Below, one piece after another: positions 22,900 to 58,356 of a stretch of DNA of 64,000 bases. Under the pieces are notes generated by a model. The model had not been told where the DNA came from. It did no database searches and saw nothing but the letters and a program-made list of their open reading frames with translations. The first letter of the stretch is position 1. Every line of letters starts with the position of its first letter. Location: contig OX485803.1 in NCBI GenBank assembly GCA_950295325.1, forward strand, positions 51,723,554-51,787,553, written 5' to 3'. Source of the DNA: Polytrichum commune. Lineage: Eukaryota > Streptophyta > Polytrichopsida > Polytrichales > Polytrichaceae. A program made the position numbers and the translations under genes.

Positions 22900-24138
22900 T
22901 GTAATTGCTAGTTCAAATTCAAATTTGAACCATTCATTTAGGATTAGGTAAGAGATCATAGTGCTCAAAGTGTACGCGGAGGATATGCACATATGCAACA
23001 ATTCCCTCACGCCCACTAGGGGTACAAGATTTGTAGTCTCGTGTTGAGGTTGGGTGTGAATGGGGGTTCAGGATTTGGTGGGGCGCCTATTAGGCATAGG
23101 ATGTCCGGGCATAGGCAGGTTGGGCAGTTGCATTCTGATAGGTAACATATGCATGGTAGCAACCACAATGAGATAGTGTTGTATTGGTGTGCGGTCGTTG
23201 TGGATATTGGGATTTATTAATGTGAAGCAACATGTTTTAGGGTGAGCCTTTAGGGTGTTAGCTAGTGTATGGGTTGTTGTGTTGTGGCAGTTGGTGTGAA
23301 GGCTATTTGTATGATGCTTTGTGTAGTAGGATGGTAAGTGAAGGCATGTGTCATTTTCTTTGGGGTCACAAAGGTTGTATAATGGGGGTATGTTTTGTTT
23401 GACTACATGTTTTTTACTAAAGTTGCTCCATGTATTGGCCATATCAAAATTTTAGTATTTGTGATATTTGTGGGTTGGAAATCCACTTGGCATCACAAAA
23501 GATATTGGATCCTGTTGGGTGGAGAGCTTTGTTTGAGAGCCATTTGTTGACATATGGGATGGTGTTGGTTGCTAGGGAGGTGAGTGCATTTTTATATCTT
23601 TCATGTATATATGTCTTAAGGTTGCATTTGGAGCCGTCATGTTAAGTGGATGTAGGGGATATTGAGGGCCAAAAAGGTGTTTGGTGGCCTATTAGGTTGA
23701 AGGGTGTGACAAGTGTTTTTGGTTTTTGGGCTTTTTTTGGCTAGTTTATATGCTTCATTATTGCCTGCTATGTTCTGTGTGTGCTTCAACTTTTTGGGTT
23801 GTGTTGTTATGTTTGGATGAGTGAATGTCTACAATGATGTGAGTGATAAGCAATTTATCGAGGTGGTTGTAGTGACACACCTGGACATTTGGCACAAAGG
23901 ATATTCGGGTATCTTAGGGGTGTAGTTGCTATGTGATTTGAAGAGGGCCGTTATATACTCATGACCCGTTATATGTTATTGTTCCCTTCATTATTTGTAG
24001 TATGATTGGGTGGGGGATCTTAGTGGATGGATGTCGGTGATTTGTGGAGGGAATGGGGCAAAGGGGATGGGAGGGGGGAGGAGGTTTGGTCTATGGGGAT
24101 TTGGGGTGGAGGTTTGGCATTTTGTACTTTGATGCTTT
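22900..24138 (-). mobile_element. Decayed cousin of the dual-endonuclease LINE, 3' half (RNase H end to nuclease)
   Basis: On the minus strand, about 23880-23740 reads a degraded RNase H tail (IAGNNEAYKLAKKS against NIDGNEKADKLAKMG in the intact ORF2). Then 23440-23070 reads NDTCLHL, a 'HTNCHN' equivalent of RVRRHNKA, and CCFTLIN matching RCFILMN, in the same order as the CCHC/restriction-like endonuclease region of the intact element. An equivalent of the RPDIL motif is recognisable just after. Many frame changes and stops are present. The sense strand has the same A/C-rich, G-poor bias as the intact LINE. It is old, and the 3' end is not clearly defined. Confidence 0.6.
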
Positions 24139-25568
24139 GGGCTGATTTACTTTATAGACTAGGAAGTCGGACCAGGGCGTTGTAAGAGCGCTAATTGGTT
24201 GCTAAGCTCATCCTAGGACCACTTCAGTTTACACTATGGAAAAATGGTAGAGGGACCATGAAGGTCGAAGTCCCCAAAAATCCAATTTTCAAGGCCTCAT
24301 AAATGCACAAACATGGTCCAACAGGTTTTGCAGTGAGAGAGGCAAGAGAGGTGGTATGGAAGGAAAAGGCAAGGTTTCATGGTAGGGAAAATACAGTTAT
24401 AATACTTTTTTAATGAATTTTTTTGGGAGGCTTTATATACAACTCTTCCCACTAGGTAAGGCTCATAAGGCACATTTTTCAACATCTATATGATGTAATG
24501 AATCTTAAGAAGCAAGTCCACCCTTTATGTGCCCTAGATCATATCATAGCCCATGAGACATACCATATCTTCCATGCCCTACCCCTTAAACTTGCTCCCA
24601 CATGTTTCATCAAACAATGTGGGACATCTAAATCTCAAGAATTTGAGTGTAGATTGTTTTTTGGGTCTACCAACTGAAATGTTTGGAATTCGGGGGCTTG
24701 TAATATACCCTTGAAAATACCTTTCCAACAATATATTACACGCCCCCAAAAACTTTTAAAATTTGCGGTTCTTTTGACCACCTTGATCTATAGTCGCTAA
24801 ATGACTATAAATTTTTCTTTTTCATTTTTTGCATAGTTTTCTACTACACTAAATAGGCTATTTAGTGTTTGATATATTAAATACGAATGCATACACTAAA
24901 TATCAATAACCCTCTAAAAGTAAGTAACATTAAATGTAAAATCAAACACTAAATATCAACTATGTTAATATGTGGAAGTCACATGTTTTAATTTAGTGTT
25001 AGTTAGGATTTGAAAAATATATATCAATGATAAAAGGAGAATTCCAACATATCTTCTAGCAACTCTTCCAACACTAATTATCAAGGAATTGAAAATTAGT
25101 GTTGAGCAAGGTAGGGTAATAACAACATTGAATATAATCAAACACTAAATATCCTATTTAGTGTAGTGACAACACAAGGTACATGTAAATTACATTGAGC
25201 ATGTACAAATTAAATCGCTCATTTTTTGGTAAAAATTGTTGTGAGAAGATTTGCAAGCCACATTTTCAACACATTTAACAAGAAGTGAAGACAAGTGAAG
25301 CCCACGAGAAGACAAGAGAATGATCAAACTTGAATTTATTTCAAAACTGCCCTTTTTGGGCATGTATTCAAAAAAACCAACACGTTCACTTTTTGGTGCA
25401 TGGTCATTCTTCTTGGTTCACATTCGGTTTGCACCTAATGAGGGGCCTGAGGTTTTCAAAACTAAACTTTTAAGAAGTTTGACCATGGAAATTGGACCAT
25501 GAACTCATACCGTTGAAAAAGGCCCTCTTCCATGGTCCGACTTCGTGGTCTAGAGTGTAAACCAACCC
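24139..25568. mobile_element. 1.4-kb Harbinger-like element inserted in the LINE relic
   Basis: The left end GGGCTGATTTACTTTATAGA and the inverted right end GGGTTGGTTTACACTCTAGA are similar and both continue into a shared 'GAAGTCGGACCA' word, giving arms of roughly 45 bp. The right flank is TTA and the left flank TTT, an imperfect 3-bp duplication. LINE-homologous sequence is present on both sides and absent within. I see no transposase reading frame. A TA-flanked MITE (24847-25163) sits inside. Confidence 0.55.
24847..25163. mobile_element. TA-flanked MITE, subgroup A, copy 2 (317 bp)
   Basis: Flanked by TA at 24845-24846 and 25164-25165. Terminal repeats are CACTAAATAGGCTATTTAGTG and the matching CACTAAATATCCTATTTAGTG. 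The interior, read in reverse, follows copy 1 (13806-14123) closely, including ATTAGTGTT and AACACTAAT words and a 'gttgttat.accctacc' stretch. It is non-coding and is nested inside the 24139-25568 element. Confidence 0.75.
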
Positions 25569-26897
25569 TTAATGAGTATGTGGTGTGGCAGGGGGGATTG
25601 GGGTATGTGGTATTGACCTCTAGAAGGAGGTTAGGGAAGTTTTGGAGGAAGGTATGTATGCGATGGTGGGTGTTTTCATGGGCGATATGCATTATGGAGG
25701 TAAGGAGGGGTTTTGTGGTGATACAATATAGGGGGAGGTTGGGGTGGTGTGTATTGGAGGGTATGTGAAGGGATTTTCATTATGGGAAATATGGTTGGTG
25801 GTTGGAGAAGATCAATGTTGTTGTTTGTATAGTCATCATGTGTGATGATGATAATGTTGGTGTTGTTTGGATTACTTTGTTGTGCAATTCTAGCCCACTT
25901 GATGACTTTTGGGATGAAGTTGATGTCGGTGATGTGGGTGTATCTGTGGCCATACCACTGTGTGTTGAATGCATGGCCTACTGAGCCACTTTTATTATGT
26001 CTCTCTCGTGTGGGAACGATATGGTGTAAATGCGGTGGGACACATTGGAGGGCTTGAGAAGTGGGAGTGTGTTAGTTTGGAGGTGTTGATTAAGTTTTCG
26101 AGTATTGGTTTGGGGTAGGGCGTGTTGATTGTGCAAGGGGGAGATGGAAGTCAGTGTTTTTCATGGTAGTGATTTAATGTATATGTTGGTTAGTAGTAGG
26201 ATCTTTGTTGCAAGGTCTTGTGAAGGTGGGTTGACGTTGAGGGAGGGGTTATTTCTACTTATGCAGTATTTTTCCCATAGCTAGTGGAGTTTTATCTAGT
26301 CTTATGTATGTTTGGTAGTTTCCTTCATGGTTGTGTTTTCGGGCGAGTGGTGGATGAATTTGGATGGTGAGTGCACTTGCGATGATATCCTTGTCAGTAA
26401 GGTGTGGTATGGTGAGGCTTGGGTGGACATATCTTCTATCTCTAGATGATGGGGTAATTTATGTGACGAGGAAATTTGTAGATATGAATTTGTGTCTCAT
26501 ATTTTGCGATAGTTTTGTGATGAGGAGAAGGTTATGTGTCTCATATAAGAGGGTACCAAGATTCAGTAGTACTCTTTGTGGTATCCAATTGTTATAGTGG
26601 ATGTCATGTGTGGTCCATTGACAATTGAAGTGATGGGAGTGCTTTTGGACTCCCCATTTATCTTTTATATATGATTTTTTTGAAACGAGTTATGTTTGAG
26701 AGAGGTATGCCTGAAGGGGATGTGTGTGTGCAGAGGAAGTTTTGTGTAGAGAGGGTGGGGGTAGTGGTAATGATATTGAGAGAACATCGTGTAGTGTAGT
26801 GGGTGGGAAAATGGTTTTGCTTTGGAGGACCGCACTTTTTATGCTTTTAGATGTAGCATGATACTTAATTTGCCTGAAGTTGTTGGAAGTTTAGAAT
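25569..26897 (-). mobile_element. Decayed cousin of the dual-endonuclease LINE, middle part, 5'-truncated
   Basis: Minus-strand reading from about 26625 gives FNCQWTTHDIHYNNW and then PQR, matching YLCQWTTTNNYTYNKWRTQR of the intact ORF2 (about residue 1680). From about 26015 it gives KSGSVGHAFNTQWYG, then a KVIKWARIAQQ word, matching FGSLGKAFDHKWQG and QAIHWARMAAQ (about 1895-1932). Homology fades at the left, just before the Harbinger-like insertion, at the stretch preceding RNase H. No APE or RT sequence is seen upstream, as expected for a 5'-truncated LINE copy. About a third of residues match over the best 53-residue stretch, so it is a related subfamily or an old copy. Confidence 0.6.
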
Positions 26898-45014: not shown

Positions 45015-45025
45015 AGTGGGAGTCA
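45015..45025. repeat. Target-site duplication, LINE 3' side
   Basis: AGTGGGAGTCA, identical to 58346-58356 at the other end of the LINE. Confidence 0.75.
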
Positions 45026-45040
45026 TAGATAGATAGATAG
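45026..45040 (-). repeat. (TAGA)n tail at the LINE 3' end
   Basis: About 3.75 TAGA units (CTAT on the sense strand) directly abut the target-site duplication. Several LINE clades end in short tandem repeats rather than poly(A), made during target-primed reverse transcription. Confidence 0.7.
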
Positions 45041-45045
45041 TAACT

Positions 45046-45066
45046 CCGGTCCCGTTTAGGGACCGG
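45046..45066 (-). other. Perfect 3'-terminal hairpin of the LINE RNA
   Basis: An 8-bp perfect stem (CCGGTCCC with GGGACCGG) closes a 5-nt loop (UAAAC in the transcript), 5 nt before the tail. In other LINEs (for example eel UnaL2) a 3' stem-loop followed by short repeats is what the reverse transcriptase recognises. By analogy this is the likely RT recognition element. Confidence 0.7.
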
Positions 45067-45440
45067 CGTGAATAGAGTGTCCGTTCGTAATGCCAACAAT
45101 CCGATGCCCACAAGACATGGGGAAGCTGGGACAAAACTACTCTCCCCTTTCGAGGATGGACACTATAGTAGCCAGTAAATAATAACCGTGTCCATTTTGG
45201 CCCACGGGGTTTGTATAATTAGGGAATTAGTTGCACGGGTGTTCATCAAGTCATGACGGTTGGTTGTGGGAGGATGTTGAGATAAGACGGCCCCCGTTCG
45301 ATCCCCGTTTGACTGTCATATATGTAGATCATGATTTGATGTTGCAAGTGATAAAAAGGCAGGAAATTAGTACCAGCCAACCGACACCAATCCCTTATCT
45401 TGAGCTGCTAGGTAGAGATTAAATGTTTTGGTAGTTTGAG
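45067..45440 (-). other. LINE 3' untranslated region
   Basis: 374 nt between the ORF2 stop and the terminal hairpin. No conserved reading frame. A GTTCGATCC word resembling a tRNA B box (about 45296) lacks a matching A box or cloverleaf. Confidence 0.6.
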
Positions 45441-48400
45441 TTATGGAGGGTCTAGATTTTGGGGAAGCGGTTGGTGATTTTCTATTCTCCTTTTATGTAG
45501 GAGGATAGACATGGCATAGTGTATTGCAATGGAGTTGATATCTTTAAACGTATTTTTAATGAGATTCGTGGGTATTTTGAGTTTGTCTTCGAGTATTTTC
45601 ATAGAGGGGGTGTGGGTGGTAGCTCTGGCCCCAGCGGTAATGACAATAAGTGGTTCAGTTTTCCAACCTCTAGAAACAAGACTATCAAGTAGCGGTTTGT
45701 ATTTGTTAGTTTTTGCCTCTATTGCCTCTCGGGAGAATCTATCGTTGCAATATGTGAATTCAATAAATTGTATAGTGAGGTTAGGGTCGGTATCAGTGGG
45801 TGGGACATTTTGATATGGTAGACCTTTAACGCAGAGTATATCAGGTCGAAATCTTGCGTTGCAGTGGCATCTTTGTGTGTTACATGTGCATGGGAGGAGC
45901 CAATTAGGGACAGTATTTTCTTGGGGATTATTATTGAAGGTACCGGCATTCATGAGAATAAAACATCTAGATTTTTCGGACGAAATTAGAAGTTTACGAA
46001 TTTCTGCTACTGCTTTATTATGTCTTCTAACTCTGAGTGCATGTATATGTTGTTGCTTACATTTAAGTAGTACATGTAGCCACGTGTCTGGGTCGTTTGA
46101 GTTGCATATGGGACATGTAATAGAGGGGTATCTTTGATTGCCGAAGAACATTTGCTTCCTTGCATTACCCATGTAGGTGCCTGTGCGGAATTTGATAAGG
46201 CATGATTTTTGTTTGTCTGTGATTAAGGGATTTGTCCAGAAGTCGTTTGACATTTCTTTGTTTATGTCTACATTTTCTGTCCATTTGCACGTGTTGGGGG
46301 TTTGTGTGGCCATGATTGCGATATTGGTCTCCCGATCGTATTTTTTAATTTGTTTTTCTAAGAATCTGACTGGGCCTTTGTCTGGGACTTCATCCATCGA
46401 GGCCCAGATATCTTTTTGGTAGTAATACGGGGTTGCGTGGGCATGTTCGTATGGGTGACGGGCGTTTCTGTGTTCTAATTCTAATCCCATTTTTGCTAGT
46501 TTATCGGCTTTTTCATTACCGTCAATGTTGACGTGTGCTCTAACTTTGTATAGTGTGATTGGTTGTGTGCGGTTTTGAAGGATTTTTACCATGGAGTTAA
46601 GTGTGGTTTGGTCTGGGTGGCTATTATGGAGAGTGGGGTGTTTAATTTGTGTGTTGAGTAAGTATAAGACATTTAGACTATCTGTGAATATAAAGGCGGG
46701 TTCATTAGGGAATTGTGTGTTGACGATTCTTAATGTTTTGTGTATGGCCATCATTTCAGCACGTAGTATATTTTGATGCCCGTGGAGTCTTTTGGCAATG
46801 TTTAGGCCTTTGGGGCTGTAGATGCCGTAACCAGCTCTTTCTCTTCTCCATACCCCAGGGGCAATTTCTAAGGGTTTTATGAATGAACCATCCGTGTAAT
46901 AACTAAATTGTGGGTGGAATTTTAGGGGTAAATTTGTTTGGTAGTCTGGAAGTTGTGGGATAGGGATATTATTGTGTATGTATGGATTTGGGTAGTTTGA
47001 TTTAGCCCATTTTTTACTAGGGTTAACGGTGGTGTTTGGGGGGGTGGGTGGTGCAATTTGTGTGTGGCTCTGAGGTATGTGGAGGTTGTTTGATATTTCT
47101 TGTATTAGTTTCATTTGTTCAAGGGTGCCAATGGTATTGCTTTGGTGATGGATGCAGAATATTTGTATGGTAGATGGCTCTTTCCTGGGGATATTGAGCT
47201 CGGGGGGTATTGTGGGTTCCTCATAGGTGAGCGTATCAGCGGCAAAATGGGCAATGACATGTGTGTCTGGAAATGGGCCTATGTGCGGGTTGGAGTTTTG
47301 GTACCAATCAGTGTCGGGGGAAATAAGTATAGTGATTGTATGTGGATCGTTTTGGGCCGCCATTCGGGCCCAATGAATAGCTTGTTGTAAGTCTGTTGTG
47401 TTATGGGGGTGTGCGTATCCGAGTCCTTGCCATTTGTGGTCAAACGCTTTACCTAGGGATCCAAATATTACGTCTCGCGAGAATGGTGAATAGAATTGGC
47501 TGAATTGTATGGGACATGTAACTGGGGACGAGAAATATGAATGATTAATATTGAATGTTGTAATTAGGAGGTCTAGTATTGGGGTTGGTATTGTGTACTG
47601 GGCTCGTTTGAGCGTGTCATTTTTTGGGATACGGTATTTATACCTTTGGTATAACCAAACAATTTCAGTTTCGAATGCCTGAGTAGAGGGTTCTAGACCG
47701 TGTGTGGTATTTTTGGCCAGTTGGTATTGTTTCCATAGCCACAATAGCCGGGTTTTCGGGATGGTAAGGAGATGCCGGCCGTTGTCCTCGTATATGTGGG
47801 CAACATCGAATTGTATTTGTATGGTATCCGAGTTTGTTTCGATGTCGTTTTCTGGGTTACATTCATTAATAGAGATTTGAGCTAGTGGGATTGTTGTGGT
47901 TGGTGTGACAAACCTTGTGTCCCTATGTTGTTCTGTGGAGAAGTAGGCATTGATTATGTTTGAGAATTGTTGGTGTTGCCTTTCTTTGTAATACTGGATA
48001 AGTAAATCGGTGTTGTGGTTACATATGTTGGTTTCGCAGTAAGGATAAAGGTCTCGTTGTGTTCGCCATTTGTTATATGTGTAATTATTTGTTGTGGTCC
48101 ATTGGCACAAATATGACGTAACTGTCCGTTTTATTCCATTATGGTCGTTGGATTGTTTTTGTTTGTGATCGAGGATTTTTTGTATGGGGAATTGTCGGGG
48201 GTCTTTAAGCATGTTGCTGGGGGGAGGGGGTAGGTGGGGGATGGGGCGGTGGGTGTGGTGTACGGGGTTGCTCGGTGGTTGAGGTAGGATGTTATGGTGT
48301 CGAATAATGTACTTGTTTTTTAGAGATCTTGGCGGATGATGTTGTTGACATGGCATGGGGCAGTGATTACAAGGGGGGTGGCAAAATAATTGGTTAGCGA

Positions 48401-51400
48401 TGTGGAGTGCGCTTTGGAGGAGTTTAGAAGGGGTGGAGTGGTAAATTTTGAATTCGTCTGGGTTCATGAGGGTGGTACCGTTAGGCATTGTAATTTGGTC
48501 GAGTGTGGTTATATTATGCACTAGTAGTTTATTTAGTAATTTAAGTGAGAGGTGGGGGCTTAGTTCGTGAAGTATTTGTGTTTCTTGCATCCATGCGGTT
48601 TCTAGTGGGGAGGGGTTTAAGAGGAAGTTATTTATTGTACTTTTTAGGTGGACTCCGGCTTTGTGCTTGAGTAGGAACAATGTTCTAGTGATGGGTGATC
48701 TGACACAATGATGGTATCTGATGCGGGTGATTTCTTTAGATCCACCATATTTGGCGAGTATGAATTGAAGTAGGCCAACATAGATTTTCCCAAGTCGACC
48801 TTTATCATTGAGGGCATTTTGTAGTTGTTCGCCAATGTATCTTAAATAGGCATTTTGTAATGAGAATGCTTCAATTCCGAATAGGTTGTGTGGGAGTTGT
48901 GTAGTGATGTTAGATGTACATTTGGGTATTCCACAAATTATTTTATGAAGTGTGATTATTTTCTTATCAAGTTTTTTGATGGATGGTATGGAGTATGGCA
49001 CTGCATAGAAGCTATATGCTATTCCCGCCCGGATGACTGTATCTGCCATATTTATTTTTTGTTTCATAGTAGCTGGGCATGTTATGAGGGCTTGACATTG
49101 TTTAGTTACTTTAGCTGTAGTGGTATTTATTTGTGTTTTCCATTTGAGTGACGGTGCAAGATTGATTCCTAAATATGTGTATGGTTCATGTTGGTTTAAG
49201 ACTGGTAGGGGTTGGTTTCTGTAGTTGATGTTGGAGGCTTGGATTAGGGCTTTGAAAGTTATGGGGTGGAGTTTGGATTTATTTGGGCACCCAGTCACGG
49301 CACATTTGGGTATTCCAAGGTCCATTCCAGCCCAGGCACAGAATTTGTCTAGTTTGGTGAGTTGTGTTTGTAGTGACTCTAATTTATTGGCGATTGCTGC
49401 TAGATCATCGGCATAGGCTGCTGATGAGATTTTAACTTTAGATGTACCAAAAGTATATCCATTGTTTCCTTGTTGGAGCCATCGAAGGAGGGGTTCAAGG
49501 AATATGATAAAGAGGTACGGGCTTAGTGTGTCGCCCTGTATTGTGCCTCTTTGTATGGGGATTGGTAGGGTTTTGCCGAAGTGTTCTCCAATGAATATGG
49601 TTGATGATTGTGAATATATGTTTCCTATGAGGTTTATGGAGTCAGTAGGATAGCCTAGATCCTTCATGATTGCTAAGAGTCTGGCGTGATCAATAGAGCC
49701 AAAGGCATTTTTGAAGTCAATATAGAGAATGTATATATCTTGGTTCGTGAATCGTGCGTCTTCAAGCGCTGCGATTAATAATTGAATTTGTCTAGAAGTG
49801 CTTCTCTCAGCTCTAAACCCTTCTTGACTATCGTTTAGGATTTGATGTTTTTCTCCATATGCTGATAGGATAGATGTTAGTGTACTCGTGTAGAATTTAT
49901 ATATGGTGTTAGCTAGTGCAATAGGCCTGTGATTTGTTAGTTGTGACGGGTCACCTTTTTTGTATAGTAAAACTGTGAGACTAGTTTTCCACGATGCGGG
50001 GATTTGTTTTTGTTTATAACATTGTTTAAAGAATAGAAAGAGTAATTTGTGAAAGCGTGGCGGCATGTTTTTTAGAATGGAATTGGGTATTTTGTCTGGG
50101 CCGGGGGCTTTGTTATTACTTAGATTTTTAAGGTAGAGGTCGTATGTTTGTTGGTCAAAGTACGTGTGTAAGGGGGTTTGGGGTTCGCCTCGTCTGTCGA
50201 TTGTGTATCCGTCTAAATCGTGCCATGGGTATTGCCGGACTCCACATGTGCAGTGTAGTGGGTGGTTATTGTTATAGTGACATGTGGGGACTGTAGGGCG
50301 GTTACTAATGGATTGTTGCGTGTAAATTTCTGATGCGATATTTTCTGGGTTAGTTAGGATGTTATTTTGCCTATCCATGATGAAGTCAAGTGGTGAGGTT
50401 TCAGTATTCTTGAAGATTTTACGATTTATCTTTTTGGGGGTTTTTTCATACATTTGACGATATTTTGATACGGCTTTTAGAATACAATTTTTGGTATATT
50501 TTGTGGTAATTTTTCTGGCTGCTTTATTTGCATTTTTGGCGATGGTTGCAATGGTTTCAATCCATTCGGTAGGAGGTATCATTGTAACGGGTGGAAGTGG
50601 GATGTTTGTATTTTGGTGGTTACGTATGTCGTTGAGGATGGGGTGCGCTTGCCAAAGTGGGTCGTGTTGTGCAATGTATATGGTTTTCCGGATGAGGTGA
50701 TATGTGTTTAGGTGTTGTTTCCATTTTCTGGCTAGTTTTCGTGGCAAAAATCCACCTTGTTGGGTTGTTCTATTCGTAAGATTGGGTAGTGGGTCTGCTT
50801 TACAAGTTTTTTCAATTGTTTCTGAGATTTTATGTACAATGTGGTCAAATATTGTGCAAGCTTCCGCCCATAGATCTGGACTTAAGTGTTGGTGGGATTC
50901 TAGTAATGTGGTAAGTGTCTTGATTTGTGTGAAATTTTCTTCGAAGAATATTATGTTGAATTTTTCGATGTTTTCTGGTGGGATTGGATTTAGGATTCTA
51001 GTAGGTGGCGTGTTTGTGGGAGGCGGGGGTCTGGCTATAAGGGTGTTATGGGGGATATGTAGGACAATTGGGTAGTGGTCTGAGTTTAGATTCATGTTGG
51101 TGTTAGTAGTAGAGATGAATTTGCTGTTGTCTGGCGAGTGGATGTAGAATCCATCTATTAGACTTGTTGATGTATAATTATAGCCTCCTTGTCTAGAGAA
51201 AGTAGTGTTAGTTGGGATATATTCCAGGTTGAGTGATGCGGTGAAATTTTTCCATTGATAGTCTTCTTCTTGTGGAAGGGTGTTAATGTTGTTATTTTGT
51301 CTGCCCGTAAGTGCGATGTCTCGGTTAAAGTCACCACATAATGTATATATGTGATTGGGATGGATAGTGATTTCGTTAGTGATTTCGTTCTTAAGGTGTG

Positions 51401-53147
51401 GGATAAGACACGTGTCTTCTAAGTGTGTAGGCATATACATGTGTATGATTATCCAGGGTGTTAGTGGGTAGTTATTTATTTTGATTATTTGTAGATATGG
51501 AGAGATATTTGCTGGCGTGGGAATTTTGGTGATATTTCCAGGGAATGCATATTTATTGTGGATGAGTGTAAGTAAGCCTCCTATACCGGGGGTATAAGGC
51601 ATTCTTTGTTGTATGCATCTTGTAAGAGCATGTGTGTTGTTAAAAGTGAGTTTAAATTCTGGAAATAAGTTTTGTATGTATTTTGTGGATTTGTTTGCAG
51701 TTAGTTTGGTTTCTTGAATATGTATGATTGCTGTGTTATTTAGTGAATTGTTGATTAGATTTTGTAGGTTTGGCAATGATGTGTTGAGTGACGACGCATT
51801 CCATGTGATGATGTTGGTTTCGTGTTCGATGTCGGTGTTGGTTCTTGGAATTGGTGCGGGAATATCTAATGGTGGTGGTGGGTGTGAGTATTCATTGATG
51901 TTTTCTAGGCATCGGAGTGCTTCCTTGAGCAATTGACTTGGGAGGAAGGGAAATTTATTTTGAAGGGTGGCTAATGTAGGTGTAACATCTCGGTTATGTA
52001 TGAATTCATATAATTTTGTGTTTATTGAATTTTTTGGGTGTATTATATCTTGATTATTTTCCACGAATGTGGTGTAGGGGTGAGGTGTCAATATGTGCCT
52101 TTCAGGTGGATTGTTGAGGTTAGCTAGTCTGATAATCAAAGTGTTAGTCCAAATGTTGTTAAAATGGTAATGTTGAGGTTGGGCTAGTATGTTATTGCAT
52201 GTGTCTATTGAGGGGTGGATGGTGATGATGAGAGCATAGAGCATATGTGTGGGTGGTGATTGGCTTTGTGTTTGTGTATATTGGTGTAAATGCGGGTAAG
52301 TTGTTATTGCTTGGGGGTGTAGTGGGTGTGTGTTTTGTAGAATGGGGGCAAATGTATTTGCGATGTGTTGGTATTCAGGTTGTAGTTTTATGGTGTTTGG
52401 AATGAAGTAAGTGTTTGCTCTTCTTTTGTGTGTTGTAGGATGTGTGTGGAGGATGTTAGGCATTGGTCCTGGGTTGGGCTTGATGTCTCCGCCTTTTAGC
52501 AATTCAAGTTTGTCAATGAAGTAGTAACCGTAGGAATGAAGTGTTCTGGGATTTTTCATATGTATTTTTAGATATATTATCATTGTAAATTTGGTTGTGG
52601 TAAAAAGGTTAGGTATAGCGGGTATGGTGATTCCTGTTTGTTTGGGTGGGAAGTGTGATTTTATATCATTTGGACATATGGGGTTTGTTATGGAATTAGA
52701 TTTCCAAGTATTGAGGAGTTGATATGCGTCATTCTTTGTGTGGCGAGGCCGGTAGGCCGAGCCCATTATATCTTTTAAGTGAGGTTGGTACTTTGAGTGG
52801 ATTTTTGGTAGGTGTTTGAATTTGTTATAATATTCGAAGTTAAGGTGAGGTTTATTTGTGGGGCATTTGTGGTGTGTATATCTATGGGCATTTGTTTTAT
52901 GGCGTAGTCGGTAGGTTGAGGTTACATTGGTGGGTGGGTAAATGTTTTGTTTATTGTAAAAGTTTAGTTTTGAGTGAGCGTGGTGACTGAAGTACGGCTT
53001 GTGGTTGTGTTGGATGTTATGGTTAGTTAATATGTATGTATATGATTTGTCTTGGAGTATATGTTTTAGATTTATGCGTGGTGTCCACTCGTAGGTGATG
53101 TGGTTTATGGGGTTTTGTTTGTAGTGGAGAGGGTTAGCCAAGGCCAT
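45441..53147 (-). CDS. LINE ORF2: APE endonuclease / reverse transcriptase / RNase H / restriction-like endonuclease (2,568 aa)
   Basis: This polyprotein copies the element RNA into DNA at a nicked target. Residues 1-228 are a His/Asn/Tyr-rich leader ending in a 2A-like motif (GGDIKPNPGP, 219-228). APE endonuclease spans about 445-697: N450, E479, D606 and N608 (GDFNRD), D665, and D690-H691 (SDHYPI). RT spans about 1008-1265: APGPDKIPNSIL, D1144 (YIDFKNAFG), QRGTIQGDTLSPYLF and YADD (1245-1248). A Cys/His cluster is at 1589-1604. A methyltransferase-like segment is at about 1870-1952. RNase H spans about 2083-2220: D2086, E2131, D2156, D2215. A CCHC finger (C2345, C2348, H2358, C2363) is followed by RVRRHNKA, then the restriction-like nuclease: R2434-P-D2436, E2463, K2479, K2482-Y2483. 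No OTU-type protease motif is visible, although one is reported in Dualen. The frame is open for 95 codons upstream of this ATG, to a UGA at 53433-53435; the true start is therefore uncertain. All motifs are intact. Confidence 0.92.
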   Translation of the reverse strand: MALANPLHYKQNPINHITYEWTPRINLKHILQDKSYTYILTNHNIQHNHKPYFSHHAHSKLNFYNKQNIYPPTNVTSTYRLRHKTNAHRYTHHKCPTNKPHLNFEYYNKFKHLPKIHSKYQPHLKDIMGSAYRPRHTKNDAYQLLNTWKSNSITNPICPNDIKSHFPPKQTGITIPAIPNLFTTTKFTMIIYLKIHMKNPRTLHSYGYYFIDKLELLKGGDIKPNPGPMPNILHTHPTTHKRRANTYFIPNTIKLQPEYQHIANTFAPILQNTHPLHPQAITTYPHLHQYTQTQSQSPPTHMLYALIITIHPSIDTCNNILAQPQHYHFNNIWTNTLIIRLANLNNPPERHILTPHPYTTFVENNQDIIHPKNSINTKLYEFIHNRDVTPTLATLQNKFPFLPSQLLKEALRCLENINEYSHPPPPLDIPAPIPRTNTDIEHETNIITWNASSLNTSLPNLQNLINNSLNNTAIIHIQETKLTANKSTKYIQNLFPEFKLTFNNTHALTRCIQQRMPYTPGIGGLLTLIHNKYAFPGNITKIPTPANISPYLQIIKINNYPLTPWIIIHMYMPTHLEDTCLIPHLKNEITNEITIHPNHIYTLCGDFNRDIALTGRQNNNINTLPQEEDYQWKNFTASLNLEYIPTNTTFSRQGGYNYTSTSLIDGFYIHSPDNSKFISTTNTNMNLNSDHYPIVLHIPHNTLIARPPPPTNTPPTRILNPIPPENIEKFNIIFFEENFTQIKTLTTLLESHQHLSPDLWAEACTIFDHIVHKISETIEKTCKADPLPNLTNRTTQQGGFLPRKLARKWKQHLNTYHLIRKTIYIAQHDPLWQAHPILNDIRNHQNTNIPLPPVTMIPPTEWIETIATIAKNANKAARKITTKYTKNCILKAVSKYRQMYEKTPKKINRKIFKNTETSPLDFIMDRQNNILTNPENIASEIYTQQSISNRPTVPTCHYNNNHPLHCTCGVRQYPWHDLDGYTIDRRGEPQTPLHTYFDQQTYDLYLKNLSNNKAPGPDKIPNSILKNMPPRFHKLLFLFFKQCYKQKQIPASWKTSLTVLLYKKGDPSQLTNHRPIALANTIYKFYTSTLTSILSAYGEKHQILNDSQEGFRAERSTSRQIQLLIAALEDARFTNQDIYILYIDFKNAFGSIDHARLLAIMKDLGYPTDSINLIGNIYSQSSTIFIGEHFGKTLPIPIQRGTIQGDTLSPYLFIIFLEPLLRWLQQGNNGYTFGTSKVKISSAAYADDLAAIANKLESLQTQLTKLDKFCAWAGMDLGIPKCAVTGCPNKSKLHPITFKALIQASNINYRNQPLPVLNQHEPYTYLGINLAPSLKWKTQINTTTAKVTKQCQALITCPATMKQKINMADTVIRAGIAYSFYAVPYSIPSIKKLDKKIITLHKIICGIPKCTSNITTQLPHNLFGIEAFSLQNAYLRYIGEQLQNALNDKGRLGKIYVGLLQFILAKYGGSKEITRIRYHHCVRSPITRTLFLLKHKAGVHLKSTINNFLLNPSPLETAWMQETQILHELSPHLSLKLLNKLLVHNITTLDQITMPNGTTLMNPDEFKIYHSTPSKLLQSALHIANQLFCHPPCNHCPMPCQQHHPPRSLKNKYIIRHHNILPQPPSNPVHHTHRPIPHLPPPPSNMLKDPRQFPIQKILDHKQKQSNDHNGIKRTVTSYLCQWTTTNNYTYNKWRTQRDLYPYCETNICNHNTDLLIQYYKERQHQQFSNIINAYFSTEQHRDTRFVTPTTTIPLAQISINECNPENDIETNSDTIQIQFDVAHIYEDNGRHLLTIPKTRLLWLWKQYQLAKNTTHGLEPSTQAFETEIVWLYQRYKYRIPKNDTLKRAQYTIPTPILDLLITTFNINHSYFSSPVTCPIQFSQFYSPFSRDVIFGSLGKAFDHKWQGLGYAHPHNTTDLQQAIHWARMAAQNDPHTITILISPDTDWYQNSNPHIGPFPDTHVIAHFAADTLTYEEPTIPPELNIPRKEPSTIQIFCIHHQSNTIGTLEQMKLIQEISNNLHIPQSHTQIAPPTPPNTTVNPSKKWAKSNYPNPYIHNNIPIPQLPDYQTNLPLKFHPQFSYYTDGSFIKPLEIAPGVWRRERAGYGIYSPKGLNIAKRLHGHQNILRAEMMAIHKTLRIVNTQFPNEPAFIFTDSLNVLYLLNTQIKHPTLHNSHPDQTTLNSMVKILQNRTQPITLYKVRAHVNIDGNEKADKLAKMGLELEHRNARHPYEHAHATPYYYQKDIWASMDEVPDKGPVRFLEKQIKKYDRETNIAIMATQTPNTCKWTENVDINKEMSNDFWTNPLITDKQKSCLIKFRTGTYMGNARKQMFFGNQRYPSITCPICNSNDPDTWLHVLLKCKQQHIHALRVRRHNKAVAEIRKLLISSEKSRCFILMNAGTFNNNPQENTVPNWLLPCTCNTQRCHCNARFRPDILCVKGLPYQNVPPTDTDPNLTIQFIEFTYCNDRFSREAIEAKTNKYKPLLDSLVSRGWKTEPLIVITAGARATTHTPSMKILEDKLKIPTNLIKNTFKDINSIAIHYAMSILLHKRRIENHQPLPQNLDPP
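47292..47540 (-). other. Methyltransferase-like segment within ORF2 (residues about 1870-1952)
   Basis: Between RT and RNase H lies SPFSRDVIFGSLGKAF, then WQGLGYAHP, AIHWARMAA and ILISPDTDWYQN. The order (D..F, AF..W.G, a Y.HP in place of a DPPY-type motif, helix, hydrophobic strand, P-D/W) resembles the phage-type Dam/N6-adenine methyltransferase fold known from DIRS elements. The same block is recognisable in the decayed cousin at about 25850-26020, so it is a family trait. The catalytic DPPY is not present in canonical form. Function is inference. Confidence 0.35.
52464..52493 (-). other. 2A-like ribosome-skipping motif in ORF2
   Basis: Codes for GGDIKPNPGP, preceded by the hydrophobic/leucine stretch KLELLK. 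The 2A consensus is D-(V/I)-E-x-N-P-G-P; here E is replaced by K. 2A-like sequences are known near the N-terminus of several APE-type LINEs, where the ribosome skips the Gly-Pro bond. If active it would separate the leader (and anything fused upstream) from the endonuclease-RT part. Activity with K at this position is unproven. Confidence 0.7.
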
Positions 53148-53432
53148 AGTTCTTTTGCAATAGGATTTATATCTTATGCTAAATAATAGTACGGTGGTAT
53201 TATCTTTTATGTAATAGTGGGTGGGTTGATGTTTTGGGAGATTGAAGTGTATGTGGGTAAAATTATATAAGTGACCGCTATAGGTTATGGACGGTAGTTG
53301 TGGGATTATGGGTGTGTGGATTGTGGGTTGGGTGAAATGTAATATAGTGGGGAAGTGATTATAGTGGCAAGATGAGGTCGTGGGTTGATGATGGTGGTGT
53401 TGTGATTGTAGGTGATATTGGTATATGGTGTG
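53148..53432 (-). other. Open 95-codon stretch joining the middle ORF to ORF2 in one frame
   Basis: Codon by codon I find no stop between the UGA at 53433-53435 and the ORF2 ATG at 53147, and the frame is the same as that of the middle ORF (the ATGs are 996 nt apart, 332 codons). The segment has no other ATG in this frame. It is either an N-terminal extension of ORF2 reached by read-through, or an open inter-ORF spacer. Confidence 0.7.
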
Positions 53433-53435
53433 TCA
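53433..53435 (-). other. Single UGA separating the middle ORF from the ORF2 frame
   Basis: Context is AAT-TGA-CAC. UGA followed by C is the leakiest stop tetranucleotide known in eukaryotes. It is the only stop in 2,901 codons from 54143 to the ORF2 stop. It may be a programmed read-through site, a recent nonsense change, or a true end of the middle ORF. Confidence 0.7.
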
Positions 53436-54143
53436 ATTTTGGTGCGAGGTTGATAGGTGTGGGGTTAGGGTGTTATAGTGAGTTTGGGTCAAAATAAGGG
53501 CGGTGATGAAGGTTAGGATTTTTAGTAAGTATTGGGTTAGTTTAGTTATGTGTCTTTTGGACGGGTTAGTGTTTGTGTTGTGGGATGGGGAGTGTTGTTT
53601 TTTGTGTAGATGATTATTTTTTGTTGGGAAAGGGTGGGGCGGGCTATATCGTTTGTAAGTAGTGTAATTTATTTTTACACAGAGGGTAGTTCGTGTGAGA
53701 AATAGTGCAAACTTGACAAGTAGGTAGGGGGTGCATATTGGAACTAAAAGTATTGTCCGTATTGGGTATGTATGAAGGGGGAGAGAATATGCGTTAAGTA
53801 TAGTATAGTAAGTAGTATTTCTCAAGGAGATGAGGGTTACTATTAGACATGTTTTGAGTTGGGTGTATATACTAATGCGGTAGTTGTATTTGTGGGGTGA
53901 AGTTGTGATAATGTTTTTTGTGTGGGGGTGGTTGGTATTGTATTGATGTAATGTTAGTGTTGGGGTGGTGTTTGAGTGTATGATATGTAGGTGGGACTCC
54001 ATAATTGAGACAATAAGAATGTATACAAGTGTAGTAGTAAGTATCGTAGTGTTTGTGCACTCTTTATTTATATAAATATGAAATAGAAAACATAACTTGT
54101 ATGCAACTAACGACCATGCTATTTCTATGAGGTTGCTAGTCAT
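53433..54143 (-). CDS. LINE middle ORF: hydrophobic, probable multi-span membrane protein (236 aa)
   Basis: The protein matches no family I know. It has hydrophobic stretches at about 5-25 (IEIAWSLVAYKLCFLFHIYI), 33-48 (TTLVYILIVSIM), 96-107 (weak), 128-151 (TILLVPICTPYLLVKFALF) and 205-220 (YLLKILTFITALIL), separated by basic, His/Thr/Asn-rich loops, so three to five membrane spans are plausible. Its ATG overlaps the ORF1 stop in the sequence ATGACTAG, a layout that suits termination-reinitiation, as known for the UAAUG of the LINE SART1. It shares frame with ORF2. The sense strand here is rich in A, C and T, which by itself raises hydrophobic content, so membrane function is a hypothesis. 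I know of no LINE with a membrane protein between ORF1 and ORF2. Confidence 0.55.
   Translation of the reverse strand: MTSNLIEIAWSLVAYKLCFLFHIYINKECTNTTILTTTLVYILIVSIMESHLHIIHSNTTPTLTLHQYNTNHPHTKNIITTSPHKYNYRISIYTQLKTCLIVTLISLRNTTYYTILNAYSLPLHTYPIRTILLVPICTPYLLVKFALFLTRTTLCVKINYTTYKRYSPPHPFPTKNNHLHKKQHSPSHNTNTNPSKRHITKLTQYLLKILTFITALILTQTHYNTLTPHLSTSHQN
54136..54143 (-). promoter_or_regulatory. ORF1 stop / middle-ORF start overlap (ATGACTAG)
   Basis: ORF1 ends AAT-GAC-TAG and the next ORF begins ATG-ACT-AGC in another frame, overlapping by 8 nt. Such overlaps support translation of the downstream ORF by reinitiating ribosomes. Confidence 0.7.
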
Positions 54144-57100
54144 TTTGAGAATTGGGGCCTTTGTGGTAACTTGATGGAGAGTTCCGGAAGTGACTGGTGT
54201 TGAATCCCGGTGGTGCTAGCTGTGCCGTGTTGGTGTCGTCCAGTGGGTTATGCGGCATGTGAGGAAGTCTTGCGGGAATAGGGGGGTCCGGTAAGGTAGT
54301 AGCAATTGTTTGCATAATATTATGAATACGATGGTTGGATTGTTGAAACTCCGATGCCATCGCACTCATAATGTTATGTATATTGGCCGCATGAGTTTTT
54401 AAGGTTTCCGTGGACGCTTCAACTCGTGCATCCGTGTTTTGATTAATGTGAGTGGTGAGGGTGTTGAGTTTGATGTCCATAGTCTCAACAAGGTTTTTCA
54501 TAGCTTTTTTGAAAAAAGTTTCCGAGACTAGTGGGGTCGTGGCGGCATGGTTGTTCATGGCTAAGGCTTTTTGAGCAATTACCTCTCGCACCGGGGCTTG
54601 AGCAAGGCGTATGGCGGTGGAGTTTGGCGCGGAACCGTCGATACTCCCTTTGTGTGGAACAAAGTCCACTCGCCGTCCAAAAATGTACACGGATTTGTGG
54701 AGCCAATCCGTGTACACGGCCGCGTTAAGGCACTGGATGTGGCACCATCCAGATTGCCTATCGTCCTCTTGTTTGTGTTGGTAGCCAAACGTGATATCGG
54801 TGACGTTATCCTCGCCGAAAAGTTTCTTGAGCGATTTGGTGATTGTGGATTGTGACTCTCGTTGCGGAAGATTATTTGCAACGAGAGTTGTACTAATCCG
54901 CAACTCCGAAGGGTTACCCATCCCTTTATCCTTTGTGGCACTAACCTTGAGTCGTTCGGAGTGGTAAGTGAGTCCGTTGTTGAGGATGTCCGCACGTGCC
55001 TCCTCGGTGGTCAAGGTGATAAATGCAAAATCTTTGTCGGTGTCGGACTTTGTGAGAGAAAGGATCTCAATTTCTCGGCCGTCGTAGTAAGCATCTCGCA
55101 TGATGCTTCTAAGTATGTCGGTGGCCGAGTGGTCACGAAGTACCTCACCCTTAAGGTGAAGTCGCATGTTGCGAGCCTTAGTAATAAGTTCAAATCCTTT
55201 TTCTACCTTCCCTATAATTCTTTCCTCATCTCCCATAGCCATGACAAAGGCCCTCTCACCTCTAAGTAAAGCTAAACCGTCTCTCTTTGGGTTTTGGAGA
55301 TGAATTTTGACAAATCCAGCCCAGTTCCGTGTAACGGTATTTATGCCTATATCTACGGGGTTGGAGTAGGAAGTACCAAGGGGTATGTTCATAAGTTTGA
55401 GTCTATCCATACAAGCTGTTTTAACTTCTTTCCGGCTAAGTTGCTTGTATGCACCGTCAAACCGAATGGTAATATGGAATCCCTCGGTAAGTCCGGAGTC
55501 ATGTGAGATAGTTTCATACCTCGGAATTTGGGTAAGGTGGAGATGTTGACCTGGTACCGCGTCCGGACGCTCGGATGGGTATAGAGTTTGTCGTGTCCTT
55601 GGGAAGGCGTGCCGTAGAGACCGGAACTCCTTGATTTCGGATGGCGGTGTCCCAATGGCGAGGAATTCTTCATCCGTTCGGAGTTCCTTCAAAATGCTCT
55701 TACCCCTTTGGATGAGAAGTGCCTCATGCATTTGAAATCCGAGCCACATTTGGCTAAGCATGTCAATGCCCAACGTGGATGTACGTTTGGAAAGTGTAGT
55801 GTGCTTACTTGAGTCACGTGGTGTGGATGTGGCCGAGTAATCCTCCGCTTTCCTTCTCTTAGTGCTTTGGCTTTCCGAAATGTCTCCGATCCGTGGGTTG
55901 CGGTATTGTGACGTTGGTGGAGTGTTGTCGGCGATGTGGACGGATTTTTGAGATGATTGGGCGGCATGAATCGAGTGCCTCTCCAGTGAGGCTTGAAGAG
56001 AACTTCCTCCTCTTTCGGGGGAGACGTTCTCGAGTTGTGCGTCCATGTCCAAGTCTTCATCCGCATTGGTGTCATTTCGATGTGAACCTTGACATGTCAT
56101 GGGCGACGGAACTTGGATTTGATTTCTAAATGCCATGTACTGATTGTCTATCTCATGAGTCGGTTGCATTGTATAGGCTGGTGACAGGTGAGTAGGGTTG
56201 GCTCTCTGTAGCTGGTCTTGGGGGGCTCCTGTTGCTTGAAATGGGAGTTCGAAGTGGGACCGTTGGGAGTCGTTAGAGTCTGTCTCTGGAGCGTTGGGAA
56301 TGTGGGCTGTGAATTGTCGGGCTACTGGGAGTCGGAGATCCTTGTAGGCGTTGGTCAGAGTGGAGCTGGGTCGGGTGGGTGGAGCGGAGGGTCTGCCTGA
56401 GGCTGAATTCGGAGGCGAGAGTCGGGGGGTGTGGGTTGCTGGTGCTGTGAAAACGGGAAGCCTTTGTTGTTGAATGCCTGGGGGGTGGAATGCTGGTGAT
56501 CTTCGTGAGACAGAAGGACTTCGGGGGCCTCTGATGTTGCTTGCTGGGAGTTGAGGTTGACGTGTTGTGTGCTGTGGGTCGGGAAGATGTCGAGATGGCT
56601 GCGGGGGATTGGTGGATGGCGGTCGAATGTTGATGTCTAGTGTTTTTGGGTTTTTCTGGATGAATCTGGGGGAAGACAGAATGGTTGTGAGAATAGTGTT
56701 GCATGGAGTAGGGGTGAAAAAAGAACGAGTTGCATGTAGGGATGGGAATCTTACCTGGTGGGTTGGTTTTGAATGACTATGTGTGTAGTTGTTGTGTCCG
56801 GATGCGTAGTGATTGGAACTGCTGTGGTCGGGATGGTTGCTGGTACTTCCGAGGCTGTTGAGGGGCGGCGAGCTGATCGAGTGTGTGGCCTGTGCAGGTG
56901 GCCCTCTGAGAGTTGGTGCTGGTTGAAGTTGAGGGTGGCGGATGCAGGGGCGAGAGTTCTGGCTCAGGAGGCGATGGATCGGTGTGGTTGGGGGAAGATG
57001 GGAGTTGGTGAGAGGGTGTGAGGGGTGGGAGAGAGTGAGCAGGAGAGGAGAGTGGGGGGCAGTAGGGAAGAGGTGGGGACTGTGTGAGAGAATGAGCCTC

Positions 57101-57639
57101 AGGGATGAGGCTTGTGAGGTCTTGAGCCTGTGGGTCTGGAGATTAAGTAGTGATGTGCGCTCTCGACTGCAGGAGAGTGTGCAATTGCGTAAGTCGTTTG
57201 GGGGTGGTGCATTAACTGGCTGACGGCGTGCTCTGGATGGTGGAGAAGAAATGTAGGAGATCGTGTGTATGTGTAGGTCGAATGTTGATTGCATGGTGGT
57301 TCGTTGTTGTCGTTCTCTGAGCATAGACCTAGGCCGATTGTGGGAGAGCATACAGGTGTGAGGGGCGATAATTGGTGGTAATTTGAGTATTTGCTGGGGT
57401 TCTCTGAGAGGGGTCTTAGATTGGGTGTATGAAGTCATGAATGTGTGTGGGTCTTTGGCTGGTTGTGAGTTAATTAGCTGTGGGTGTTCTTTCGGTGGTG
57501 GCTGAGGGCGATTGCAGGAGATCGTGCTGGTGAGGGCGTCGTTTGGTGGTGGCGTAATAATCTGTTGTCGTTCTCTGAATGATAGCTTGGGCCGAGGGTG
57601 ATAGATCATGCATGTGTGGGGAGCGGTAATTGGTGGCAT
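54136..57639 (-). CDS. LINE ORF1: RNA-binding protein with RRM-like folds (1,167 aa)
   Basis: ORF1 proteins bind and package the element RNA. Residues 1-165 hold a repeat of about 29 residues (P..APHTCM.., ..RERQQ). Residues 165-580 are low-complexity Ser/Pro/His-rich. KRRK (594-597) looks like a nuclear-localisation signal. From about 620 the sequence is globular. Two segments look like RRMs: about 826-900 (EIEILSL, DFAFITLTTEEARADILNNG, RLKVS) and about 914-998 (STTLVANNLP, LKKLFGEDNVTDITFG, GWCHIQCLNAAVYTDWL, RRVDFVPH). A third may lie at 720-800 (FHITIRFDGAYKQLSRKEV). Residues 1035-1115 are helical and probably coiled coil (trimerisation in other ORF1 proteins). No CCHC knuckle is seen. 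The ATG chosen is the first in frame, but the same frame stays open without stop or ATG for 233 more codons upstream, to 58338. Base composition is more balanced in the RRM part than in the flanking low-complexity parts. Confidence 0.8.
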   Translation of the reverse strand: MPPITAPHTCMIYHPRPKLSFRERQQIITPPPNDALTSTISCNRPQPPPKEHPQLINSQPAKDPHTFMTSYTQSKTPLREPQQILKLPPIIAPHTCMLSHNRPRSMLRERQQRTTMQSTFDLHIHTISYISSPPSRARRQPVNAPPPNDLRNCTLSCSRERTSLLNLQTHRLKTSQASSLRLILSHSPHLFPTAPHSPLLLTLSHPSHPLTNSHLPPTTPIHRLLSQNSRPCIRHPQLQPAPTLRGPPAQATHSISSPPLNSLGSTSNHPDHSSSNHYASGHNNYTHSHSKPTHQVRFPSLHATRSFFTPTPCNTILTTILSSPRFIQKNPKTLDINIRPPSTNPPQPSRHLPDPQHTTRQPQLPASNIRGPRSPSVSRRSPAFHPPGIQQQRLPVFTAPATHTPRLSPPNSASGRPSAPPTRPSSTLTNAYKDLRLPVARQFTAHIPNAPETDSNDSQRSHFELPFQATGAPQDQLQRANPTHLSPAYTMQPTHEIDNQYMAFRNQIQVPSPMTCQGSHRNDTNADEDLDMDAQLENVSPERGGSSLQASLERHSIHAAQSSQKSVHIADNTPPTSQYRNPRIGDISESQSTKRRKAEDYSATSTPRDSSKHTTLSKRTSTLGIDMLSQMWLGFQMHEALLIQRGKSILKELRTDEEFLAIGTPPSEIKEFRSLRHAFPRTRQTLYPSERPDAVPGQHLHLTQIPRYETISHDSGLTEGFHITIRFDGAYKQLSRKEVKTACMDRLKLMNIPLGTSYSNPVDIGINTVTRNWAGFVKIHLQNPKRDGLALLRGERAFVMAMGDEERIIGKVEKGFELITKARNMRLHLKGEVLRDHSATDILRSIMRDAYYDGREIEILSLTKSDTDKDFAFITLTTEEARADILNNGLTYHSERLKVSATKDKGMGNPSELRISTTLVANNLPQRESQSTITKSLKKLFGEDNVTDITFGYQHKQEDDRQSGWCHIQCLNAAVYTDWLHKSVYIFGRRVDFVPHKGSIDGSAPNSTAIRLAQAPVREVIAQKALAMNNHAATTPLVSETFFKKAMKNLVETMDIKLNTLTTHINQNTDARVEASTETLKTHAANIHNIMSAMASEFQQSNHRIHNIMQTIATTLPDPPIPARLPHMPHNPLDDTNTAQLAPPGFNTSHFRNSPSSYHKGPNSQND

Positions 57640-57965
57640 ATGAGCTAGTTGTTGGGTTTCTGCGAGAGATGAGCGAGGTCTAGAATATAAGGTCTTGCAT
57701 GCGGGTAAGTCTGTTGCTAGGTGTGTATTGATTGGTTGTTGTCGTTCGGTGGGTAATAGTTGGGGTTGAGTGTAGACGATCGTGCAGGTTAGTGTGTCGT
57801 TTGGAGGAGTAGTGGCGGCTAGCTGATGGCATCTTTTGGGGAGAGGCTGGAGTCGTGTATGAGAGGGCGGGCAGGTGTGTGTGCCGTTTGGAATTTGTGG
57901 AGTAATGGTCGGTTGGCGTTTTCCTGAGAGTGACTGGGGCGTCGTGCTTGTGGTGTAGCGTGTAA
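57225..57965 (-). repeat. 87-bp tandem array spanning the 5' region and the start of ORF1
   Basis: The word GTTCTCTGA or a close variant recurs at 57312, 57399, 57486, 57570, 57656, 57744, about 57830 and 57918, i.e. every 84-88 bp, most often 86-87. 87 bp equals 29 codons, so the array adds 29-residue repeats to ORF1 without shifting frame. Tandem repeats at the 5' end of LINEs often act as promoter units. Confidence 0.75.
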
Positions 57966-58345
57966 GTGTGTGCGTATAGGCTGGTATGATTTTGGTTGAG
58001 ACTATTATGTGTGGGAGTGGTGTTATTAGAGTTGTGTGTAGGTTGTTTTGGTGAGTTTGTTGTGTGTAGGGAGGAAAGGGTGTAGTTGAGGATCTATGGG
58101 TATGGGTTGGCTGTATAGCGTTAGGGCTGTCTGCACTTGAGTAGAAGAGGCCGGGGCTTTGTTTTGCTGGGAAGACCGGAGGAGTGGTTTTCGAGGGCAG
58201 AGCTGATGTAATGCCGTAACTGACCCTGTTGTGTATGCGACCTCTGGAGGTAAGGGTTTTTTGTGGCTGACATTTGGGTTTTTTGATGCTCTCTGTGTGT
58301 GTAGGTTTTGTGTAAGGTGGGTGTTGTGAGCGGGTTTGTCACATA
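57966..58345 (-). promoter_or_regulatory. 5' end of the LINE, presumed internal promoter
   Basis: The last 380 nt up to the target-site duplication. LINEs carry their promoter in this position. No TATA-type element is evident. The ORF1 frame is stop-free up to 58338, and the first in-frame stop (58341-58339) lies 5 nt inside the element end. Two other minus-strand open frames overlap here and are probably composition artefacts. Confidence 0.5.
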
Positions 58346-58356
58346 AGTGGGAGTCA
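58346..58356. repeat. Target-site duplication, LINE 5' side
   Basis: AGTGGGAGTCA, identical to 45015-45025. A caution is that a short local repeat (TATGTGAC) occurs on both sides of this copy. Confidence 0.75.

Follow-up and report, generated by a model that had tools for sequence, protein, structure and literature searches.

Elements of the Dualen or RandI type, whose original description is reportedly that of Kojima and Fujiwara in 2005, are the described systems closest to the long interspersed nuclear element (LINE) considered here, which lies in a 64,000-nucleotide stretch of Polytrichum commune DNA (contig OX485803.1 of assembly GCA_950295325.1, positions 51,723,554 to 51,787,553 of the forward strand; hereafter the window). 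Such elements are reported to combine an apurinic/apyrimidinic endonuclease (APE) and a restriction-like endonuclease (RLE) and to have an RNase H, and Dualen is cited as evidence for an origin of APE LINEs through replacement of the RLE (PMC4640811). Eight of eight green-algal RandI families end in 3′ repeats that are not poly(A), with (ATT)n and (CTATTT)n as the units (PMC3747384), and Dualen is described from core-Reinhardtinia (PMC8226300) and from cryptophytes (PMC12747079).

We consider it the likely case that the window carries a recently inserted, 5′-truncated and partly broken LINE of the Dualen/RandI type, whose second open reading frame (ORF2) encodes a constrained, probably non-catalytic module related to PCIF1/CAPAM, the cap-specific N6,2′-O-dimethyladenosine (m6Am) methyltransferase. 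The parts visible in the sequence are ORF1, a 2A-like motif, APE, reverse transcriptase (RT), the PCIF1-related module, RNase H, a CCHC motif, RLE, a (CTAT)n tail and a target-site duplication. All parts of the element are on the minus strand; C4 and C3 are other contigs of the same genome, and L numbers are loci read there.

The PCIF1-like module of ORF2

The module occupies residues 1781-1979 of ORF2 (47211..47807). A Pfam scan of ORF2 places PCIF1_WW (PF12237) at residues 1813-1908 (E 1.3e-10, above its curated cut-off). A homologue search with the RT region (ORF2 residues 1000-1420) returned 188 proteins, 120 of which were listed (P numbers); a profile of ORF2 with 19 of these, searched against the PDB, matched PCIF1 with E 8e-14. 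The top structural match of the module is PCIF1 in its S-adenosylhomocysteine-bound form, and the FASPLN, FGS and NPPF regions of its methyltransferase core are all aligned. A profile built without them finds the module in 84 of the 102 other listed relatives, including 13 of 17 Haematococcus rows; a profile trained on the same relatives would be circular for such a count. Single-sequence phmmer finds it in 70 of the 120 (none of them Haematococcus rows), and by hand count about 55 of the 120 carry PF12237 in the annotation supplied by Pfam. Across the clade, ORF2 proteins commonly include the module. No paper linking PCIF1 with LINEs was found in the literature searched, which did not cover the original Dualen description.

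Is the module of this element still an enzyme? The NPPF of PCIF1 aligns with NPEY in many relatives, and the element has AHPHN (residues 1912-1916; 47400..47414) in place of the catalytic ANPPF or ANPEY, with His and Asn replacing the Asn and the aromatic residue of the motif. The NPPF mutants APPA and SPPG are inactive, according to a review (PMC10544176). In the 98 rows that cover the motif, the element included, 32 have NPx[YFW], 4 another NP form, 21 HP and 20 no P there; a single repeated form accounts for 13 of these 20. Of the 72 rows scored on the RT tree, 24 have NPx[YFW], and the fewest changes needed are 12, a count that takes no account of their direction. NPEY is found in all nine other motif-covering rows of the element's own 13-row branch, and NPx[YFW] in no motif-covering locus of this genome (L009-L038 and the window read): most have AHPH, with AHPP at L029 and L030, AYPH at L023 and THPH at L016, and a decayed relative in the window has THIT.

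The ratio of nonsynonymous to synonymous rates (dN/dS, by Nei-Gojobori) for the module of the window copy is 0.085 against L019, 0.136 against L014, 0.068 against L038, 0.102 against L023 and 0.072 against L024 (L012 is too close and L030 saturated), in pairs that are not independent: the window copy is in all of them and the other copies are mostly of an 85%-identical subfamily (hereafter the 85% subfamily). Values for the RNase H are 0.057-0.138 (six pairs), for the RLE 0.105-0.137 (three pairs) and for the C-terminal part of the RT with its linker 0.09-0.32 (seven pairs). The module values are close to those of RNase H and RLE, so that constraint on the module is about as strong as on the catalytic domains. 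In the element's family the module has probably lost N6-adenosine methyl transfer, with HPHN standing for NPPF or NPEY, and this loss, combined with strong purifying selection, points to a non-catalytic, structural or nucleic-acid-binding role for the module at its place between RT and RNase H.

The NPEY relatives may methylate adenine in element RNA or DNA. A wider reading, possible rather than probable, would have the whole LINE clade carry a PCIF1-type methyltransferase as an ancestral and central component of its replication protein. NPEY members would methylate adenine either in the element's RNA, perhaps beside the cap, or in freshly synthesised DNA; several lineages, this element's included, would independently have lost catalysis and kept an RNA-handling, non-catalytic module.

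HPHN might instead be an unusual active variant, in which case the module of this family would be a working adenine N6-methyltransferase that marks element RNA (for instance the cap-adjacent A) or new DNA against silencing. The strong constraint, the match to an S-adenosylhomocysteine-bound fold and the many relatives with Asn and aromatic residue in place as NPEY are all compatible with such an enzyme, which we nevertheless find unlikely: in the element itself both residues are replaced, no locus covering the motif in this genome has NPx[YFW], and APPA and SPPG mutants are reported as inactive in the review (PMC10544176).

Besides the dependence among the dN/dS pairs, several observations weigh against a module that is related to PCIF1 and no longer catalytic, or against other parts of the element as we describe it. 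ORF2 alone matches PCIF1 in the PDB weakly (E 0.02), and a search with the module region (ORF2 1730-2060) yielded no homologue at E ≤ 0.001 from 692 candidates. Pfam matched no WW domain in ORF2 at E up to 1. The structural alignments with zebrafish PCIF1 span residues 430-660 and the cap-binding helical domain is not seen, a missing match being no proof; with neither domain found, nothing points to cap binding in particular. In PCIF1 it is the helical domain that binds the cap, according to the review (PMC10544176). Outside the module, a K replaces the canonical E of the 2A-like motif in all three family copies read, and the cycle proposed below assigns neither APE nor RLE to either cut.

Catalytic domains and relationships

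The 2,568-aa ORF2 of the window copy (45441..53147), which a preliminary description of this locus had already reported as a single frame, contains the APE at residues 444-712 (51012..51818), RT with the following region at 979-1431 (48855..50213), RNase H at 2082-2222 (46482..46904), and CCHC plus RLE at 2340-2545 (45513..46130). At the motifs which that description had reported, the residues that catalysis should require are all present: N450, E479, D606, N608, D690 and H691 in the APE, D1144, D1247 and D1248 in the RT, D2086, E2131, D2156, H2205 and D2215 in the RNase H, C2345, C2348, H2358 and C2363 in the CCHC motif, and PD2436 and E2463 in the RLE. Pfam recognises RVT_1 at 1064-1330 (E 7e-29) and RNase H (PF00075) at 2082-2222 (E 2.7e-12), and gives no direct match to APE or RLE at E up to 1. 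Searched alone against the PDB, ORF2 does not reach an APE (exonuclease III is best, weakly, at E 0.55) and gives no significant score to the R2 CCHC region. The 20-sequence profile matches two regions of R2, the RT (domain E 5e-65) and the CCHC/RLE (domain E 8e-13), as well as the LINE-1 endonuclease (E 2e-24) and RNase H (E 6e-17), so that the proposed check by profile found RNase H directly and both endonucleases through the profile only.

Both endonucleases recur among the relatives. Profiles cut from the 20-row alignment, 19 of whose rows are among the 120 listed, match the APE in 94, the RLE in 90 and both in 69 of the 120; outside that alignment, the RLE is matched in 71 of 101. Among the 26 rows with no APE match, P0104 alone has more than 550 aa ahead of the RT, and most of the 30 with no RLE match end early. 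Four (P0070, P0092, P0096 and P0102) extend 970-1472 aa past the RT and yet have no RLE match; in the window element the RLE starts about 909 aa past it.

The RT tree was a quick maximum-likelihood tree with support from the Shimodaira-Hasegawa-like approximate likelihood ratio test (SH-aLRT) only, rooted on L042 and made from 132 rows cut to 93 by dropping those more than 78% identical; in composition the element deviates from the average. A single clade of 88 rows (support 99) unites the element with its relatives and leaves outside it three R2 sequences as well as L042 and L044, two RT frames of this genome that are unclassified. Within the clade the element and L049, which represents a different family in this genome, form a pair (61% RT identity, support 100) that lies in a branch of 13 rows (support 97). 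The RT clusters with relatives bearing both endonucleases, among them rows from Haematococcus lacustris and Pleodorina starrii, in a tree that holds no type Dualen or Repbase sequence. On architecture and on this tree, assignment to the dual-endonuclease Dualen/RandI type is well supported. The preliminary description had proposed that assignment, naming an RT outside the clade or a missing RLE as grounds against it; the RT falls within the 88 rows and the RLE matches that of R2. Its suggestion of a new lineage is borne out as far as the pairing with L049 goes, within a branch that is nested in the larger clade. The extra modules it mentioned are real; it had left them unidentified, missing both the PCIF1-like module and the 2A-like motif.

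An R2-like LINE that gained an APE, or an L1-like LINE that gained an RLE, might account for the best PDB score of the RT in ORF2 alone, which is to R2 (111 bits, against 64 for LINE-1). This is very improbable given that 69 of the 120 listed relatives match both endonuclease profiles and that the relatives stand as one clade apart from the R2 and unclassified frames.

The 2A-like motif (LELLKGGDIKPNPGP, ORF2 residues 214-228; 52464..52508) includes GDIKPNPGP at 220-228, identical in the three family copies. Two copies of the 85% subfamily have GDIEPNPGP, and D[VI]ExNPGP occurs in 13 of the 120 listed relatives, lying 451-828 aa upstream of the APE in the 12 with a recognised APE, compared with 216 aa in the element. 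The occurrence of 2A in APE-type LINEs is already in print (Odon et al. 2013, as cited in PMC12846837).

Other domains are seen in individual relatives. P0036 has PF00145, presumably a cytosine methyltransferase, besides PF12237, RT and RNase H; P0010, P0117, P0030, P0043, P0048 and several Haematococcus rows have PF02902, PF02338 or PF02099, which we take to be Ulp1, OTU and Josephin proteases; and others have PF00628, presumably PHD. Such additions might suggest that the PCIF1-like module too is a neutral host gene fragment captured by chance, a view that can hardly be right, since it is contradicted by the distribution of the module (84 of 102 relatives, 13 of 17 Haematococcus rows) and by a dN/dS of about 0.1. 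Separately, PCIF1 family matches of the same score and frame length on a small contig (C24:11558-11947) and on C3 (874345-874734) are perhaps a duplicated assembly piece.

Limits, copies and reading frames

Comparison of its ends with sister copies sets the window copy at 13,314 bp (45026..58339), some 1.25 kb short of the longer sisters at the 5′ end. A six-nucleotide filler, TATGTG (58340..58345), lies at the 5′ junction; it repeats nearby target sequence and is absent from the sister copies (L040, L041). The target-site duplication of 11 bp (TGACTCCCACT in element sense) has its 5′ copy at 58346..58356 and its 3′ copy at 45015..45025. By inspection, the C4 copy has a duplication of about 11-14 bp and the C3 copy one of 10 bp; extra bases precede the shared element start in both copies, and the three insertion sites read have no target sequence in common. 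The (CTAT)n tail (45026..45040) is followed by immediate divergence into unrelated flanks in 19 of the 20 loci with a printed 3′ end, the anchor not being found in L024.

When the last 3 kb of the element was used as a genome query and 40 of 2538 candidates were scored, these comprised the window copy, four more whose identity rounds to 100%, a single copy of 96% and 34 of 85-87%. Over the last 4.48 kb the four closest differ from the window copy by 10-17 mismatches (99.1-99.6% identity), implying that the family moved recently. A search with the 5′ end found three places, the window included. Ahead of the point where the window copy starts, the other two, on C4 and C3, have 1232 bp in common, with similarity running some 15-20 bp further by eye before they diverge; the full element therefore measures about 14.56 kb, and truncation has removed the 5′ end of the window copy.

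The first two frames of the window copy are ORF1 (54136..57639, 1167 aa) and a 236-aa frame (53433..54143) in phase with ORF2, whose ATG overlaps the ORF1 stop and which ends at a TGA. This frame is probably the N-terminal part of ORF2: the TGA, at 53433-53435, closes the ORF2 frame upstream and is a sense codon in both sister copies. The stop-to-stop ORF2 frame is 2924 aa on C4, 2663 in the window copy and 1158 on C3, so that the C3 copy is broken too. On C4 the ATG at the ORF1 stop could serve as the start of an ORF2 of about 2900 aa. Frames of 2625 aa occur in two copies of the 85% subfamily and extend upstream as far as the end of another frame, which by eye resembles ORF1. These frames and the TGA make a start of ORF2 at the ORF1 stop probable. 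The window insertion is a recently active but damaged LINE copy. ORF1, the (CTAT)n tail and the 11-bp duplication had been correctly given in the preliminary description, as had the 3′ limit; its placing of the 5′ limit at 58345, and with it the idea of a complete and apparently intact 13.3-kb copy, is untenable in view of the TGA, the unshared filler and the sister copies, whose 3′ ends match and whose 5′ ends lie elsewhere.

G is scarce in the sense strand (A 35, C 31, G 13, T 21%), a composition in which open frames are favoured. Chance as the source of the long frames was rejected, the longest in 200 mononucleotide shuffles being 306 codons. The 5′ region of the C4 copy (L040 269-3040) is a single open frame of 924 codons in the phase of ORF1, with by eye no in-frame ATG ahead of the ORF1 start; 500 shuffles of the region gave frames of 393 codons at most. 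Tandem repeats were rejected as its general cause, as they make up a small part only (a 51-bp unit near the 5′ end).

Residues 640-1010 of ORF1 have 36 relatives, up to 90% identical across the whole region. In most, the conserved part runs from about residue 490-530 to 1167, the alignments mostly beginning at 479-532 and three beginning earlier. In the predicted model beta-alpha-beta patterns recur and the C-terminus is a long helix, and Foldseek matches the model to tandem RRM proteins (TM-score about 0.15 by query length). It suggests, with low confidence, tandem RRM-like folds followed by a coiled coil; with a predicted TM-score (pTM) of 0.26, the matches give no more than a hint of an RNA-binding fold. 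ORF1 is likely to bind RNA.

Further observations concern the surroundings and the rest of the genome. Next to the C3 copy, on the opposite strand, L012 105-264 matches the 3′ end of the element over 160 bp (95%) and is either a short truncated copy or a tail-sharing short interspersed element (SINE). The decayed relative at window 23085-26114 (minus strand) is of the same LINE type, and parts of both its PCIF1-like module and its CCHC/RLE region survive. Light-harvesting genes gave 58 matches, which mark a photosynthetic lineage, and seven large contigs of 42-78 Mb suggest n = 7. Fourteen light-harvesting gene matches of equal score lie within 95 kb at C5:1751760-1846160.

Proposed cycle and known systems

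The RT, endonucleases, tail and duplications argue for target-primed reverse transcription. ORF1 would bind the element RNA and ORF2 would follow the ORF1 stop; in relatives that keep the canonical motif, the 2A-like motif may split off an N-terminal piece. One endonuclease would nick the target, the RT would copy the RNA and the RNase H would remove the template. Cutting of the second strand may fall to the other endonuclease and would leave duplications of about 10-14 bp at unrelated sites.

A PCIF1-related standing part in such LINEs would link selfish RNA to the cap-methylation enzyme family, and would raise the question of whether the domain moved from host to element or from element to host. 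It would also pose a directly testable choice between methylation of RNA or DNA and a pseudo-enzyme that the element still needs. As the motif differs among relatives (at least 12 changes over 72 rows), natural variants exist for a comparison of activity.

With Dualen/RandI the element shares an APE N-terminal to the RT, CCHC and RLE C-terminal to it, an RNase H within the same protein, and a short-repeat 3′ tail instead of poly(A). It differs in its full length of about 14.56 kb and in the PCIF1-like module and 2A-like motif, of which the available parts of the Dualen/RandI sources make no mention.

R2 elements are defined by an RLE as sole endonuclease and by a single ORF. Their RT and CCHC/RLE regions are homologous to those of the element, which differs in having an APE and ORF1 and in the lack of a common target among the three sites read; R2 is not known to carry an APE, an RNase H or a PCIF1-like module. 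LINE-1 ORF2p has a homologous APE and RT, and LINE-1 is not known to have an RLE or a PCIF1-like module.

PCIF1/CAPAM itself has a methyltransferase fold homologous to the module, whereas its catalytic NPPF is HPHN in the element and NPEY in many relatives, and its WW domain, which binds the C-terminal domain (CTD) of polymerase II, has no Pfam counterpart in the element's ORF2. A parallel to the module as we interpret it may be Drosophila Pcif1, which is catalytically dead (Franco et al. 2023, as given in a citing review, PMC10544176). There too a PCIF1 relative has lost catalysis and kept a function, in a host gene rather than, as proposed here, in a module of a transposon.
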